Virus record (IMG/VR): IMGVR_UViG_3300042673_000371
Coordinates: 1 to 25,780 of that record
DNA length: 25,780 nucleotides
Origin: a virus
Strand: one strand, 5' to 3'
A program made the translations under genes and the position numbers. Below the pieces are notes generated by a model that searched no databases, was not told the DNA's origin, and worked only from the letters and a program-made list of their open reading frames with translations. Shown piece after piece: positions 3,711 to 23,746 of the stretch (positions are counted from its first letter, which is position 1; each line of letters opens with the position of its first letter).

Positions 3711-3925
3711 ACATATTCCTTTTCGTAGGCTGGGAGTGATGTTACTACTAATTCTAGCATTTCGTCAGGGTGTCTGTCAAGTACCCAATTAAGGGCCTCT
3801 CCAGCAGTTTTAAAATCAGAGGCAGTGGTGCTCTCGCCATAGCCTTGAATGGTTGCTTCCCAACAGTCAATGCCACCAGGAGAGCAGGAGTAGTTCATTT
3901 CATATATTGCCACTTGTTTCGTCAT
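3707..3925 (-). CDS. Small hypothetical protein, first gene of long operon, leaderless
   Basis: The protein has 72 residues and starts MTKQVAIYEMNYSC. TATAAT lies six bases upstream of ATG 3925, so the transcript should start at or next to the start codon without a Shine-Dalgarno. It heads a run of eleven closely spaced genes ending near 1368. Function unknown. Confidence 0.65.
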   Translation of the reverse strand: MTKQVAIYEMNYSCSPGGIDCWEATIQGYGESTTASDFKTAGEALNWVLDRHPDEMLELVVTSLPAYEKEYV

Positions 3926-3931
3926 ATATTA

Positions 3932-3954
3932 ATTATAGCCTAGGGGTCTGACAA
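3932..3954 (-). promoter_or_regulatory. TGTCAG-type leftward promoter
   Basis: TTGTCA (3954-3949) followed by GACCCC, with exactly 11 nt to TATAAT (3937-3932), then six nt to ATG 3925. It is one of nine promoters sharing this architecture. Confidence 0.7.
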
Positions 3955-4200: not shown

Positions 4201-5217
4201 TTATGTCAGCGACATTACATTTTGTACAACTTTTAGCAAACGATTTTTTTCTGCGTTAATAGCAGGGTCAAATCCGCTTGCGCTTGCGAGAATGGATTCG
4301 TTAGAACCACCACGAGCAGAACGATACCAATCAAGGCGTTCAGTTAAACCATTGAAAGCACCCCAAGCGGTGTTAGCAATCATTCCGTTAAACTCACCTG
4401 TATAGATGTCGTTAATGGTATCAACTTTATTTTCCCATTTCTTGAAAGCACCCTTAGAATCCTTTTCAGGCTTAGGATAAGCAGCAAGAATGATTTTGTG
4501 AAAATCAGTAGCAGTGACTTCTTTTTCAATCATAGCCTTAGCCATAATATCAAATTCGTCCATATACTTATTAGCCATTCCAAGAGTTTCACGAGCAATC
4601 GCAACCTTACCGCTTGCGGTCTGTGTGTGACGAATCTTGAATGATTGCTTGATACCATTCTTTTTCTTGATTGAACCAAGAGCAAGGTTAAGAGTATTAG
4701 CGCACACTACACGAACAGGTGTAATACTTGCTTGAATAGCGATTGAGCCATCGTGTGATGTGTTGATGAGCAAATAAGTTTTTACCTTATCAGCAACACC
4801 AGTAGGGTCAAGAATTGTTTCACGCTCTAATGCTAACGCACCAAATACAACACGACCACCCTTAATTGAGCCAGCCGTTTCCCAACGACCACCACCATCT
4901 AGAATATGGTCACCAAATGAAAACAAATCTTCATTCTGTAATGGAACATAACGCTCACCAACGACACCAAGAATGTCTGTCTGTGAATTGTCTGTTGGGT
5001 TAGTACGCAAAACATATTGGTATGCCTTGTCGCTTGTTAGGTGTGTTGGTGTTTCTAAATCTTCAAGGCGAACATTCCACCCATTGAGATTAGCAGCAGA
5101 TAACATTTCTGTTGTTGTTTTTTCTTCTGTGAATACAGTTCCTAATCCGTGCCAAGCAGGTTCTCTGAATGAGGCGAATGAGGTCTTGCCATTTTGTGTT
5201 TCTAGTTCGTGAGCCAC
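4201..5217 (-). CDS. DUF932 / TIGR03299 phage-plasmid protein
   Basis: This is the largest gene of the leftward region at 338 residues. The N-terminus (PAWHGLGTVF, residues 20-29), the LGVVGERYVPLQN stretch and the VRVVCANTLNLAL region are hallmarks of the DUF932 or phage/plasmid-like TIGR03299 family, whose biochemical role is not established. The start is GTG 5217, preceded by GAAGGAAAT as Shine-Dalgarno. Length is normal for the family and the gene looks intact. A TGTCAG-type promoter lies about 31 nt upstream of the start, and a partial CRP-like site and a DnaA box lie further upstream. The tRNA-Asp gene follows in the same orientation. Confidence 0.88.
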   Translation of the reverse strand: MAHELETQNGKTSFASFREPAWHGLGTVFTEEKTTTEMLSAANLNGWNVRLEDLETPTHLTSDKAYQYVLRTNPTDNSQTDILGVVGERYVPLQNEDLFSFGDHILDGGGRWETAGSIKGGRVVFGALALERETILDPTGVADKVKTYLLINTSHDGSIAIQASITPVRVVCANTLNLALGSIKKKNGIKQSFKIRHTQTASGKVAIARETLGMANKYMDEFDIMAKAMIEKEVTATDFHKIILAAYPKPEKDSKGAFKKWENKVDTINDIYTGEFNGMIANTAWGAFNGLTERLDWYRSARGGSNESILASASGFDPAINAEKNRLLKVVQNVMSLT

Positions 5218-5326: not shown

Positions 5327-5357
5327 CCTTCGTAACGGCGTGTCGATTTGACAAAAG

Positions 5358-5366
5358 TTATCCACA
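5358..5366 (+). promoter_or_regulatory. DnaA box TTATCCACA
   Basis: Perfect match to the DnaA consensus TTATCCACA. It lies in the intergenic cassette next to GGCGTGTC (5337-5344) and CCTCGGGG. Confidence 0.55.
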
Positions 5367-5863: not shown

Positions 5864-5895
5864 TGGGGGCCTCTTTCTGTTTGTTGGTTAATTTA

Positions 5896-5926
5896 AGTAT
5901 ACTACTGGCCACTGACAATTGTCAAG
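5896..5926 (-). promoter_or_regulatory. TGTCAG-type promoter with palindromic operator
   Basis: TTGTCA (5918-5913) lies 11 nt from TATACT (5901-5896). The TTGTCA is half of a perfect palindrome TTGACAATTGTCAA (5912-5925), so a classical TTGACA -35 is also present 18 nt from the -10. This overlap of promoter and palindrome suggests a dimeric regulator. Confidence 0.65.
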
Positions 5927-6589: not shown

Positions 6590-6625
6590 TGGGTTTTCTC
6601 TTTTCTTTGTTGTGGGTTAGTTTCT

Positions 6626-6648
6626 ATTATAGCGTGGGGGTCTGACAT
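6626..6648 (-). promoter_or_regulatory. TGTCAG-type leftward promoter
   Basis: ATGTCA (6648-6643) followed by GACCCCC, with 11 nt to TATAAT (6631-6626). Confidence 0.7.
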
Positions 6649-7249: not shown

Positions 7250-7990
7250 TTATTTTTTACTCGCACTGAATATGATATCACTCTTAGAGTATACACAAAG
7301 TGAACAAGAAACGCAAGCGCTACCATTTGTTGAGATAAGTGGAATTTGTTTATTATTCTCAGGACACTTAGCAGCAGGACGGCCAGTCATTTCTTTTACA
7401 TCTGCTTGACCTATAGCAAAATTCTTAGCAAGGTATGCCATACGGACCCCACTATTAATTTTTAGATCAACGGCAGTTTTAACATTCTCACTATCAGCAG
7501 AGAAGTACAATGATAGATTAGATACATCCTTAAGTATAAGGGCAGCAGCCTTTACACGTGTATACACCCAGAATTGAATATCAGGATTGATAGTGATTAC
7601 ATTCTTCCAGGCATTGGTATACTCATCGTTAAAGAAGTCACCGTCCCAATGAATGCGGAATAGCATAGGTGCGTCTTTCTTTACACAGTCTGCCTTGAAG
7701 TCATTAATCATATCAGTTAGCAATGTCTCCATAGTTAATTGATTAGCGTCTTTGAGCAAGGCCCAATTGTGTAATAGGTTAGCCCTTACACCCTTGAAGA
7801 GTTTTTCAAGTTTTCCTGCGTAGCATACGCTTTCACAAACACTAGTGGCACCAGGGCACGAGAAAGCCTTTCCAGCAGGTAGACCAAAAGTGTTTGCGAT
7901 TGCTGCTTGCTTTCCATTTTTTGTGACAAGATTAGCCACCTTTCTATCGTTAGATCTTTTTAGTTTAAGTGTATTAGTAGTCAAGACCAA
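7250..7990 (-). CDS. gp88-like phage protein
   Basis: The 246-residue protein contains CPGATSVCESVCYAGK (residues 45-60) and a C-terminal cluster CVSCSLCVYSKSD, which together mark the mycobacteriophage Gene Product 88 family. The Cys clusters are compatible with a metal or Fe-S site, but the function is not known. The start is a TTG (7990 or 7984); the earlier one overlaps the previous gene by 17 bases, and no ATG is available before the conserved region. Length is about normal. It is co-transcribed with two small genes upstream. Confidence 0.82.
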   Translation of the reverse strand: MVLTTNTLKLKRSNDRKVANLVTKNGKQAAIANTFGLPAGKAFSCPGATSVCESVCYAGKLEKLFKGVRANLLHNWALLKDANQLTMETLLTDMINDFKADCVKKDAPMLFRIHWDGDFFNDEYTNAWKNVITINPDIQFWVYTRVKAAALILKDVSNLSLYFSADSENVKTAVDLKINSGVRMAYLAKNFAIGQADVKEMTGRPAAKCPENNKQIPLISTNGSACVSCSLCVYSKSDIIFSASKK

Positions 7991-8150: not shown

Positions 8151-8296
8151 AGAGGGTCTCCTTTGTATTTCTTTAATTGTAGCATTTGGGTCTGACATTT
8201 TTTGCGGTTGTAAGCCTTCTTTGAGGGTACGGCAGAGGCAGCATTAGAACGCCTTAGTTCCATAAGCCTGCGTAATTCCTCATTTGTTTTCTTCAT
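8147..8296 (-). CDS. Small basic protein, leaderless
   Basis: The protein has 49 residues beginning MKKTNEELRRLMELRRSN, rich in Arg and Lys. A promoter TTGACA, 18 nt, TAGTAT ends six bases before ATG 8296, predicting a leaderless start. The ATGA overlap couples it to 7974..8150. A TGTCAG-type promoter lies inside its coding sequence. It may bind nucleic acid, judged from charge alone. Confidence 0.55.
   Translation of the reverse strand: MKKTNEELRRLMELRRSNAASAVPSKKAYNRKKCQTQMLQLKKYKGDPL
8176..8198 (-). promoter_or_regulatory. TGTCAG-type promoter, internal to a small gene
   Basis: ATGTCA (8198-8193), GACCC, 11 nt to TGC-TACAAT (8181-8176). It lies within 8147..8296 and would transcribe the zinc-ribbon and gp88-like genes. 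Confidence 0.55.
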
Positions 8297-8302
8297 ATAG
8301 CA

Positions 8303-8332
8303 ATACTAACACACATCTGATAAAAATGTCAA
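8303..8332 (-). promoter_or_regulatory. Leaderless leftward promoter
   Basis: TTGACA (8332-8327), 18 nt, TAGTAT (8308-8303), six nt to ATG 8296. Confidence 0.55.
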
Positions 8333-8342
8333 ATCTGAATCG

Positions 8343-8358
8343 TGTGATTAAAATCACA
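8343..8358. promoter_or_regulatory. CRP/GlxR-type operator, perfect
   Basis: TGTGATTAAAATCACA, centred about 55 bases upstream of ATG 8296, where the leaderless transcript should start. Confidence 0.72.
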
Positions 8359-8434
8359 AAAATTTTTCCCCGCCCAAAACCTGGGGAAAAGAAAAATGAT
8401 CTTCTTAAAGATATTTTATATAGGTTACTGGTGA

Positions 8435-8465
8435 GTATCCACAAGTTATCCACAAGTTATCCACA
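8435..8465 (+). promoter_or_regulatory. Three DnaA boxes spaced by 11 bp
   Basis: GTATCCACA (8435-8443), TTATCCACA (8446-8454) and TTATCCACA (8457-8465) recur every 11 bp, one helical turn. A very AT-rich stretch (8401-8425) is adjacent, with a GACACGCC (8466-8473) on the other side. It is the best candidate in the window for a DnaA-dependent site or origin. Confidence 0.6.
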
Positions 8466-8481
8466 GACACGCCCATCAGCG

Positions 8482-8494
8482 CCGAGTCCCTCGG
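8482..8494 (-). terminator. CCGAG hairpin
   Basis: CCGAG/CTCGG with a three-base loop, downstream of the operon ending at 8533. There is no U-run after the stem, so a termination role is uncertain; this may be another protein-binding element. Confidence 0.35.
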
Positions 8495-8532
8495 GAAAAA
8501 TCGCAGTTTTTATTCTGCGACCTTTCTTTTAT

Positions 8533-8676
8533 TTATTCAACAGGTAAAACTTCAAACGCATTAAATTTTTCTAATTCGTTTTCGCTAAGTTTAGCAAAAA
8601 CTTTATTTAAATTAAAAACTGCTTGAAGATCTGTATCTGCTTCAGTTACGAAACTAATTAAAACATTTTTCTTCAT
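8533..8676 (-). CDS. Small hypothetical protein
   Basis: The protein has 47 residues, MKKNVLISFVTEADTD, with a beta strand followed by helices. ATG 8676 abuts the TAA of the previous gene. It is the last gene of the six-gene unit that begins at 9444. Function unknown. Confidence 0.6.
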   Translation of the reverse strand: MKKNVLISFVTEADTDLQAVFNLNKVFAKLSENELEKFNAFEVLPVE

Positions 8677-9444: not shown

Positions 9445-9497
9445 TTTGAATTCCTTTCTTTAAGAGATTTACTTATTGTTCAATCTTTATACTAGTA

Positions 9498-9520
9498 AGT
9501 ATAGCAGAGGGTACTGACAT
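9498..9520 (-). promoter_or_regulatory. TGTCAG-type leftward promoter
   Basis: ATGTCA (9520-9515), 11 nt, TGC-TATACT (9503-9498). GGCGTGTC (9537-9544) and a CRP-like palindrome lie upstream. Confidence 0.7.
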
Positions 9521-9557
9521 TTTGACCTGTTTTACGGGCGTGTCGTGAAACTATTTT

Positions 9558-9573
9558 TGTGATAAACCTCACA
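9558..9573. promoter_or_regulatory. CRP/GlxR-type operator, perfect
   Basis: TGTGA-TAAACC-TCACA, centred roughly 74 bases upstream of the inferred start site of the 9444 unit. Confidence 0.72.
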
Positions 9574-9577
9574 TAAG

Positions 9578-9586
9578 TTATCCACA
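9578..9586 (+). promoter_or_regulatory. DnaA box TTATCCACA
   Basis: Perfect DnaA consensus, four bases from the CRP-like palindrome. Confidence 0.55.
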
Positions 9587-11008: not shown

Positions 11009-11040
11009 TTGCCAACCTCTTTCTTTTTGTTGATAATTCT

Positions 11041-11063
11041 ATCCTACCATAGGGGTCTGACAT
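11041..11063 (-). promoter_or_regulatory. TGTCAG-type leftward promoter
   Basis: ATGTCA (11063-11058), GACCCC, 11 nt to TGG-TAGGAT (11046-11041). GACACGCC (11072-11079) follows. Confidence 0.65.
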
Positions 11064-11186: not shown

Positions 11187-11202
11187 TGTGATAAATCTCA
11201 CA
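11187..11202. promoter_or_regulatory. CRP/GlxR-type operator, perfect
   Basis: TGTGA-TAAATC-TCACA, in the gap between the 11008 unit and the end of the 12092 unit. Confidence 0.72.
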
Positions 11203-11212
11203 CAAATAGGCC

Positions 11213-11221
11213 TGTGGATAA
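11213..11221 (-). promoter_or_regulatory. DnaA box TTATCCACA
   Basis: Perfect consensus on the minus strand, next to the CRP-like palindrome and a GACACGCC (11231-11238). Confidence 0.55.
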
Positions 11222-11245
11222 CCTGTGTACGACACGCCGTCTGCG

Positions 11246-13029: not shown

Positions 13030-13080
13030 TTTATTGTCCTTTCTAGTTTGAGAACCTTTCTCAACTTTCTTTATACTGTA

Positions 13081-13103
13081 AGTATAGCAGGGGGGTCTGA
13101 CAT
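13081..13103 (-). promoter_or_regulatory. TGTCAG-type leftward promoter
   Basis: ATGTCA (13103-13098), GACCCCCC, 11 nt to TGC-TATACT (13086-13081). Confidence 0.7.
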
Positions 13104-13135
13104 TTAGGGGGGTATAAAACGGACATTTGGTACAT

Positions 13136-13167: not shown

Positions 13168-13181
13168 TTTTTACCGAGGCT

Positions 13182-13255
13182 CTATATAGGGGGTACCTGT
13201 ACAGGGGGGGTGCTATATGGGGGTACCTGTATATAGGGGGGGTATATATAGGGGG
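13182..13255 (+). repeat. G-tract array, possible G-quadruplex
   Basis: Five G runs of 5, 7, 5, 7 and 5 bases (13189, 13204, 13219, 13236, 13251) are separated by 8-12 bases. Two units share CTATAT, GGGGTACCTGTA and a later seven-G run, so this is a direct repeat of about 30 bp plus a partial third. Such G runs are striking in this AT-rich sequence. Confidence 0.6.
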
Positions 13256-13416: not shown

Positions 13417-13491
13417 GAAAAATTAAATAGAGATAAAAGGTTATGAGCCTAGCAAATAAGATAACGAATTGTTATATGAGCCTAGCGAATA

Positions 13492-13507
13492 AGTGACCTA
13501 AATCACA
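13492..13507. promoter_or_regulatory. CRP/GlxR-type operator, one mismatch
   Basis: AGTGA-CCTAAA-TCACA, about 84 bases upstream of the start inferred for the second rightward promoter. Confidence 0.55.
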
Positions 13508-13547
13508 TAGTACACGCTCCACATAGTGAGACTACTAGTGAGTATAC

Positions 13548-13576
13548 TAGACAGTATGACATTTATCTGTTACACT
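13548..13576 (+). promoter_or_regulatory. Second rightward promoter
   Basis: TAGACA (13548-13553), 17 nt, TACACT (13571-13576). The downstream leader AAGAAAAATTAAATAAGG repeats that of the first promoter. Confidence 0.5.
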
Positions 13577-13737
13577 TACATAGTAAGAAAAATTAAATAA
13601 GGATAAATCCTAGTTGAGCCTCTGAGCCTACCAAATAAACCTAGCAATAGGGTGAGCGTAGCAAATAAGAGCAAATAACACTAGGCAAGGAAAGAGATTA
13701 GAAAGTCTAATCAAATTAAAAGAAAGGTGGTCTATAA

Positions 13738-13943: not shown

Positions 13944-14033
13944 ATGAGCCTGCCCCTTATTGTCCTAGCCTTGTCAGTGCTATGCGCTATAATTGTACTA
14001 ATCCCTACTATGTTAGATAAGAGTGAATACTAA
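13944..14033 (+). CDS. 29-residue membrane micropeptide
   Basis: MSLPLIVLALSVLCAIIVL, then a short polar tail. One transmembrane segment. It starts two bases after the previous stop and overlaps the next gene as TAATG. Function unknown. Confidence 0.55.
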   Translation: MSLPLIVLALSVLCAIIVLIPTMLDKSEY

Positions 14034-21115: not shown

Positions 21116-23746
21116 ATGGCTGCTGAATATATTGATGACACAGAAACTGGCAACGGTCAATACCCCACCCTAATTCCTGGATATGACCAGTCTGCTGATA
21201 TTCAAGAAGCCTTAAGACTATATCATTATGGATCAGTATCTCCAACAGGTCAAGCGGTAATTCCAGCAAACTCTGCAGCAATTAACCCAAAATCAATTGC
21301 AGGATACCTAGATGCTTTAGATACAAAAATTGATAACTCTGTTGTAGATCAAGCCACACTTGCGGGTGTTGGTATTGACTGGAATGCCGTAACTACACAG
21401 TTTGACATTGACTCTACAGTTGCTACAAAATCTTATGTTGCAAACTCAACATCCGTAGTCACTAAGGGTTCAAGTTTTACATTAACTTTAGCAGATGCTA
21501 GCAAGACTATTCTTCTTTCTACTACTACTCCAATGACTTTGACTATCCCGTCAAATTCTTCAGTTGCTATTCCAATTGGATATCAATATAACCTTGTTGA
21601 AATTGGAACAGGAAAAACAACTCTATCTGCAAGTTCTGGAGTTATCATAGGAAGCAAAAATTCACAACTATTTTTAGATGGACAGTACAGCAAAGGAACG
21701 CTATTAAAGATCGATACAGATACTTGGATTTTTTATGGCGATGTTTACGAAGGTGCAGTTATTGCTCCTGTTACTCCAGCAGTTACACCTGCAGTTACAC
21801 CAGTAACACCAGTAACACCAGTTACTCCTGTAACTCCTGTAACTCCTGTAACACCTGTAACTCCAGTAACACCAGTAACTCCTGTAACGCCACCAGTAAC
21901 TCCTGTAACGCCACCAGTTACACCCGTAGTAATGAGAACAGTTCCAAATGTTGTGGGCTTAACACAGGCAGCAGCAACAAGTGCAATTGATGCAGCAGGA
22001 TTATCAGTAGGAGGTTTTGCAACGGGATCAACCACATATGATTCTGCAAATGCTGAAAAAGTTCAAAGCCAATCTCCTACAGCAGGAACATCGGTTCAAT
22101 CAGGATCAAGTGTTAACCTTACAATGTGGAATTATGTTGCATCAGTAACACCAGCCATCCAGCCAAGTATCAGTATCATAGAGGAGTCTAGCGACTGTAC
22201 TTCAATTAGTATTAATTGGATAGGAACTGGAGCATCATGGGCTGTTACAAATAGTACAGGCTGGACTGCTACTCAATCTGGAGAAGGAAGCGGTGGATAT
22301 TGGACTGCATCATTACCTTGCGGAACAACAAAAACATCAACTCTAAGAATGTACTCTGGTCCAAATCAAACTGGAAGCCAGGAAACTCAGGCATTTACAA
22401 TATCAACAACTTCATGTACAACATGTAATCAGCAGGTTACACCAGTAACAACTCAAACATATTACGCTTGTTGTACTGATAGCCCAGGGGTTAGTGGACA
22501 ATATTCTAGTTCATCAGCAGCAACAACTGGTTTAAATGCACTCTGTGCAGCCACACCAGGAAGCACAATAGATCCACAAGGAGTCTCAACAACTGCACTA
22601 AATTGTACTTCTGTCACACCAGCAGTCACCCCTGCAACAGGTCCTAACACTTACACCTATACATACTATGACGGTAAGTGTAACTATCAAGTTAAGAACT
22701 CAAATGGAACTTATCTAAGAGACTACTCAACAAACCTTTGTACAAACTCAGGAACAGATGAGTCAGGGGCAACACTTCCAAACTGTAATCAATCAGGATG
22801 TACACCAGCATCAGTCACCCCTGCAGTTACACCTGCATCAGTTACATACTATATTGGATACTCTTCATGTAATAACAATTCTGGAATTTATGGAACTGGA
22901 AGCCCATCGGTTAGTGGCCCATTCACAGCAGCATCGATGCCAGCAGATGTTGTTACTGGGCCATCATCAGCAAGAGAAGTATTAAGATATAGATCAACTT
23001 CTGCAGAAGCATTGTCAGCAGCAGCACAAGCAGGATGTTTCCAAGCAGTAACACCTGCGGTCACACCAGCAGTAACACCAGCAGTAACACCTGCAGTAAC
23101 ACCTGCAGTAACACCTGCAACATCACAATGGTATTGCACTACTAACGAGCAAGGATTATTGTATCAATATACAACTACCACTAACGATAGTGGATGCGTT
23201 ACTGGAGTTGCTAATACAACATGTGTTTATGGACCAGCAGGAACATCCTACCCATCTGCACCTGCTTTCCCATGTGGTTCTGTAACACCTGCGGTTACAC
23301 CAGCAGTAACACCTGCAGTAACACCTGCGGTCACACCAGCAGTAACACCTGCGGTCACACCAGCAGTAACACCAGTTGACTGTACTTCATGTTCACCAAC
23401 ACAAAGTTATAACAGTACAAGGGCTGTATCAACAAGCGTCTGTGCTTCTGGAATAATGAACACATATGTTTGCTATACCCCAGGTACTTGCCCTAACATA
23501 ACAACAGACACAGGTTGCCAACCTGCATCAGTAACCCCAGCCGTTACCCCAGCAGTAACACCTGCTGTTACACCTGCAGTAACACCTGCAGTAACACCTG
23601 CAGTAACACCTGCGGTCACACCAGCAGTAACACCTGCTGTTACCCCAGCCGTAACTCCTTCTGTTACCCCATCGAACTGTACTTGCTATCTTGATTACAT
23701 CTGGCAGAATTGCCCAACATGTTGTAACGGTCAATGCGCTTACTAG
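21116..23746 (+). CDS. Large PASTA- and VTP-repeat adhesin / tail fibre
   Basis: The protein has 876 residues. Residues 1-110 are a tail-fibre-type N-terminal region; 115-212 form a beta domain common in phage fibres ([17 protein letters not shown] and on to TWIFYGDV). Residues 218-271 are V-T-P repeats. Residues 274-337 are a PASTA domain ([20 protein letters not shown]), a fold that binds peptidoglycan. Beta and Cys-rich modules are then interrupted by arrays of P-A-V-T at 22615, 22803, 23044, 23278 and 23524. It ends in a Cys-rich knot (SNCTCYLDY ... [11 protein letters not shown]). It should be the host-wall-binding virion protein. The repeats may be rigid linkers and targets of hydroxylation or glycosylation. 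Confidence 0.85.
21767..21929 (+). repeat. V-T-P 9-bp tandem repeat array
   Basis: About 16 tandem units encoding V-T-P or T-P-V, with silent third-position differences. In-frame gain or loss of units would alter linker length without frameshift. Confidence 0.8.
23044..23127 (+). repeat. P-A-V-T 12-bp repeat array 1
   Basis: Six V-T-P-A units joining two Cys-containing modules of the PASTA protein. Confidence 0.75.
23278..23380 (+). repeat. P-A-V-T 12-bp repeat array 2
   Basis: Eight V-T-P units spaced by Ala, close copies of the units at 23044. Confidence 0.75.
23524..23672 (+). repeat. P-A-V-T 12-bp repeat array 3
   Basis: Twelve units, the longest array, directly before the C-terminal Cys knot. 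Confidence 0.75.

Follow-up and report, generated by a model that had tools for sequence, protein, structure and literature searches.

The window, i.e., the whole stretch of 25,780 nucleotides analysed here, is a virus fragment of a freshwater phage group with genomes of about 105-119 kb, and its gaps between genes carry DnaA boxes in the company of CRP-type palindromes and other short words. The features around the box triplet at 8435, together with the related sites elsewhere in the window, are the following:

1-260: left end of the record; the origin-like element of relatives starts 77 nt left of base 1
5358-5366, plus strand: single perfect DnaA box, upstream of the DUF932 gene (4201-5217)
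7250-7990, minus strand: GP88 (PF17338) gene, downstream of the cassette
8303-8332, minus strand: conserved promoter TTGACA-18-TAGTAT, assigned to the operon leading into GP88
8343-8358: CRP-type palindrome TGTGATTAAAATCACA, 77 bp from the triplet, at a position more widely conserved than the boxes
8410-8425: AT-rich stretch, 5' of the boxes
8426-8437: operator-like palindrome TACT-N4-AGTA, overlapping box 1
8435-8443, plus strand: DnaA box 1, GTATCCACA, single mismatch
8446-8454, plus strand: DnaA box 2, TTATCCACA, no mismatch
8457-8465, plus strand: DnaA box 3, TTATCCACA, no mismatch
8466-8473, plus strand: GACACGCC motif, abutting box 3
9578-9586, plus strand: perfect DnaA box, with a CRP palindrome (9558-9573) at 4 bp
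11213-11221, minus strand: perfect DnaA box, flanked by a CRP palindrome (11187-11202) and GACACGCC (11231-11238)

A preliminary description of this DNA had reported three boxes every 11 bp beside an AT-rich stretch, and its coordinates proved exact: the three boxes all lie on the plus strand, 11 bp start to start, and form a DnaA box cluster of several 9-mers matching TTWTNCACA in register, with the AT-rich DNA on their 5' side and GC-rich DNA on their 3' side. The single perfect boxes it had placed in three other gaps are present as well, at 5358, 9578 and 11213, and the proximity it had seen to CRP-like palindromes or GACACGCC is true at all four places, within about 20 bp at the three single boxes, the word taking the form GGCGTGTC (5337-5344) at 13 bp from box 5358. 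Box 9578 is part of a GGGCGTGTC-CRP-box composite which is met again in relatives, where it often has two boxes in tandem, and box 11213 has a degenerate partner box at 11 bp. The triplet and the boxes at 5358, 9578 and 11213 are all intergenic; a plus-strand ORF (8284-8547) spanning the triplet overlaps the conserved promoter and is taken to be spurious. The -35 element of a second promoter-like match falls on box 1.

Other repeated elements populate the same region of the window. The GACACGCC/GGCGTGTC word adjoins most cassettes (5337, 8466, 9537, 11067, 11231 and 13360), and many intergenic CRP/GlxR-type palindromes, TGTGA-N6-TCACA, lie in the control region (4047, 8343, 9558, 11187, 12177, 13136 and 13341), the one upstream of the GP88 operon being much more widely kept among relatives than the DnaA boxes. 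Small genes are closely preceded by a promoter-like TTTGTCAG-N10-TATAAT/TATACT element (3917-3953, 5893-5920, 6611-6647, 8161-8197, 9495-9522, 11026-11062 and 13066-13105), with a further copy on the plus strand at 13971-13993; its -35 spacing is abnormal and it is perhaps read by a phage factor or a WhiB-type factor. Terminator-like hairpins, GAGCAGTTTT..CTTGCTCAGG, mark gene ends (4167, 5402, 5939, 6127, 6655 and 11271), the point of divergent transcription (13180-13255 and 13442-13669) holds TATATAGGGGG repeats and four TATGAGCCTAGCAAATAAG-type 19-mers, and an 876-aa protein encoded at 21116-23746 has a PASTA domain and long VTPAVTP repeats. The only Rfam match in the window was the tRNA.

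GP88 and DUF932 proteins each have more than 470 relatives in viral contigs, in records of up to 119 kb, and their homologues in cultured phages are chiefly those of Mycobacterium and Streptomyces phages. A 109-kb relative (G001) and Jay2Jay (Stanwilliamsviridae) have in common the portal, protease, capsid, DnaB-type helicase, primase and SSB, and also Pol III alpha, UvsX, Holliday-junction resolvases and TerL (53% identity), and the order and strand of GP88 and DUF932 in the window are those of the Jay2Jay terminal repeat. By core genes and gene order, the phage is thus assigned as a relative of the Stanwilliamsviridae, the likeness extending to a box cluster near the terminal repeat; unlike the window phage, Jay2Jay is devoid of TGTGA-N6-TCACA palindromes, has its box cluster otherwise spaced and grows on Streptomyces. 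Nucleotide comparison returned no phage record near to the window. From the relatives and a weak WhiB match we infer an actinobacterial host. Genome contigs related to the phage were found in one actinobacterial MAG and one cyanobacterial bin, which is a weak pointer to the host; a 110-kb contig of the phage group in cyanobacterial MAG bin CAINGU010000031.1 (L197) is probably mis-binned. The candidate host family was defined as the genomes grouped with the actinobacterial MAG that holds a related contig, and its dnaA loci carry the identical box TTATCCACA, often in pairs with 2-3 bp spacers, a CRP-type regulator being present in 32 of its 41 genomes. In the two MAGs holding related contigs the tandem-box pattern with a 2-bp spacer is absent, and one of them has a perfect box pair three bases apart at its dnaA locus. 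As for the phage itself, six large records all encode a DnaB-type helicase, and no DnaA domain was found in any of the six.

Among 15 close relatives, the gap corresponding to that of the triplet contains one to three boxes beside GACAC(G/A)CC, in changing number and spacing. The cassette there adjoins TACT-N4-AGTA, the arms of which are retained in most close relatives with a variable or inverted middle, and lies upstream of the conserved CRP palindrome and the TTGACA-18-TAGTAT promoter. In less close relatives, the cassette is swapped for other sequence and the CRP palindrome is mostly retained. As such, the triplet site is lineage-specific, confined to close relatives, and individual gap sites, that at 8435 included, turn over fast.

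Across the group, 130 distinct tandem pairs fall into 65 of an origin type and 64 of a gap type, with one intermediate. Every origin-type pair (65/65) has TTACTGAT right after the second box and AGTGGAG farther downstream, against none of the 64 gap-type pairs with either word. The longest trio-like run averages 6.6 in origin-type sites vs 3.28 after shuffling, an excess partly built in since the set was first picked with TTACTGAT, which favours some trio-like triplets, even if AGTGGAG as selector gives the same sequences; in gap-type sites it averages 2.38 vs 2.72 after shuffling. The origin-like element so delineated is composed of tandem perfect boxes 2-3 bp apart, trio-like triplets from 2-5 nt on, and GTGGAG decamer repeats. 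As a rule, the unwinding module of bacterial oriC comprises tandem DnaA boxes, a short spacer and at least three DnaA-trios (PMC8287927), and all three are found in the origin-like element of relatives, in a set itself found with TTACTGAT; unlike bacterial oriC, the element is borne by a phage without a dnaA gene and runs on into the GTGGAG repeats. The window triplet, assigned to the gap type by its surroundings (no DnaA-trio tract and no GTGGAG repeats), differs from bacterial oriC in its want of a trio tract, as judged from the gap-type class means and the GC-rich 3' side.

Of 15 large records, 12 have the origin-type pattern, each as a single copy, and the window lacks it. A relaxed version of the pattern had no match in the three large records without the strict one, two of which display the GTGGAG core without perfect boxes, the sequence of the third stopping short of the expected place. 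Since base 1 of the window aligns, in three relatives, 77 nt past the second box of the element, the phage's own copy was presumably cut off by the record end. The reading we favour, with a probability of roughly 0.55, is that the triplet is a host-DnaA tandem cassette of a regulatory or titrating kind and not the main origin, for which the single-copy element seen in relatives, presumably just left of base 1 here, is the better candidate.

That conserved element may instead be chiefly a genome-end or packaging boundary, its boxes being there for another reason, which we hold to be unlikely while granting it the largest share among the alternatives. In all 12 of the Streptomyces phages examined, there is an invariant intergenic box cluster, GTTATCCACA plus inverted TGTGGATAA, interrupted in Paradiddles by an insertion inside the inverted box; it is unannotated and, as measured in Jay2Jay, is separated from the right terminal repeat by about 50-90 bp on the outer side, a position suggestive of such a boundary. 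The loci concerned are L200-L202 (Jay2Jay), near record positions 121990-122094, and L232-L242. Likewise in keeping with a boundary, the TTACTG/GTGGAG core persists longer than the boxes: it stands without an adjoining perfect box in at least four divergent lineages (L141, L096, L107 and L108, with near copy L102), a degenerate TTGTTCACA being retained in L108. Hence the boxes may serve as accessories to a factor reading this core. GC skew, proposed in the preliminary description as a check for an origin, lends no support to a bidirectional origin at the conserved element, where no skew switch was found; it tracks gene orientation and reaches its extremum 4-9 kb off, where transcription converges. 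As a test for an origin, GC skew was set aside as uninformative because it follows gene direction and, if anything, it speaks against an origin at this place. What nonetheless tells against a packaging boundary is that box number, spacing and trio-like tract fit a DnaA unwinding module and that the boxes are retained in 65 distinct sequences.

Returning to the favoured reading, i.e., a host-DnaA cassette, the behaviour of the boxes across relatives bears on which protein would bind them. In the fetched relatives, 531 distinct contexts contain the word TTATCCACA vs 13-51 for scrambled words, and a CRP core lies within 150 bp of 174 of 362 non-origin boxes vs 10 of 140 for scrambled words, counts which serve as guides in that the compared sequences share descent and p-values overstate their independence. 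Box-CRP distances peak at 17 and 28 bp, i.e., 11 bp apart. Boxes precede predicted promoters and lie close to CRP sites, and in six large genomes (about 113 kb) 46 of 54 perfect boxes are inside one 22 kb control region making up around a fifth of the genome. Of 39 tandem partners with one mismatch, 21 have it at position 5 vs 4.3 expected, and the change there nearly always gives TTATACACA. Position 5 is degenerate in the DnaA consensus TTWTNCACA. Recognition of the boxes by host DnaA is well supported by the sequences because the box is exactly of host type, the tandem spacing is of host type and the variation concentrates at position 5. For the repeats to be operators of a phage-encoded protein rather than DnaA sites appears improbable: the same gaps do hold many repeated operator-like words (GACACGCC, TTTGTCAG-N10-TATAAT and TACT-N4-AGTA), and a flank preference, aG-box-GG, extends past the 9-mer, but the candidate host family has exactly this word as its DnaA box, in the same tandem spacing, and variants of the word cluster at the very position that is degenerate in the DnaA consensus.

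The preliminary description had left the choice between a replication origin recruiting host DnaA and a DnaA-responsive regulatory set; for these coordinates the latter fits better than the former, the site being lineage-specific and without trios or GTGGAG repeats. That host DnaA would open the AT-rich stretch and make the triplet itself an origin, be it the only one or one among several, is a shade less probable still than phage operators. Three in-register boxes do adjoin AT-rich DNA, and tandem boxes next to an unwinding region are the commonest published arrangement of the module (PMC8287927). Set against this, the AT-rich DNA is 5' of the boxes and the 3' side, where the trios are in origin-type sites, is GC-rich; gap-type tandem sites have no trio tract; and the triplet is found in close relatives only, the other element being single-copy and far more conserved. 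The AT-rich stretch left of the triplet was accordingly rejected as an unwinding element, since origin-type sites have their trio-like tract on the other side of the boxes. With no trio tract, an AT-rich side opposite to that of origin-type trios and a lineage-specific distribution, a regulatory or titrating cassette is therefore preferred over an origin. Chance similarity has a negligible probability and was statistically refuted, given that boxes with at most one mismatch anywhere in the window are ordinary in number (11 vs 10 expected) but that, in 400 simulations of the window under a first-order Markov model, perfect boxes averaged 0.36 vs 5 observed (maximum 3; 5 reached in 0/400), an 11-bp tandem pair never arose (0/400), and the boxes recur in many relatives.

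Put together, a large freshwater actinophage would have several cassettes scattered over its leftward early-control region, the triplet being one of them, and host DnaA would bind their boxes in a row. With early promoters about 90-190 bp downstream of them and, mostly, CRP sites alongside, the gap cassettes may tune early transcription and could, once present at phage copy number, pull DnaA off the host origin. At the origin-like element, strand opening by host DnaA would let in the helicase, primase and polymerase that the phage itself encodes. More broadly, and only tentatively, a widespread group of lytic-type actinophages that encode a polymerase, a helicase and a primase might have dispensed with an initiator and borrow host DnaA at an oriC-like unwinding element and, through CRP-DnaA composites over the early genes, have replication, early transcription and host-origin shut-off all read one protein.

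A few classic phages, e.g., lambda and P1, are known to make use of host DnaA. In phage lambda, the promoter pR is modulated by host DnaA, and the likeness is that of host DnaA acting at phage control regions, as predicted here; unlike the case at pR, the present boxes match perfectly, stand in tandem, occupy several gaps, mostly precede promoters and are CRP-linked. In phage P1 oriR and iteron plasmids, DnaA boxes, an AT-rich tract and short direct repeats come together, and adjacency of these three is likewise seen here with respect to P1 oriR, the repeats of the phage group (about 10 bp) being shorter than typical iterons. The origin-like element is alike to the basal unwinding system of bacterial oriC in its tandem boxes 2-3 bp apart and its trio-like run. 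Titration sites of the datA type are likewise DnaA-box clusters off the origin (PMC4585315), and DnaA titration at phage copy number is plausible by analogy. Host DnaA is also known as a transcription regulator (PMC8203912). In the part of the literature covered, no title or abstract pointed to a description of sites like these in the phage group.

If the interpretation is true, the recurrence of the host's exact DnaA box, tandemly spaced as in the host, across a very abundant freshwater phage group would explain how phages with a full replisome and no recognised initiator begin DNA copying. With the invariant cluster in cultured Streptomyces phages, the idea is testable in laboratory Streptomyces, and it gives a pointer to how phages of uncultured acI actinobacteria could halt host replication.
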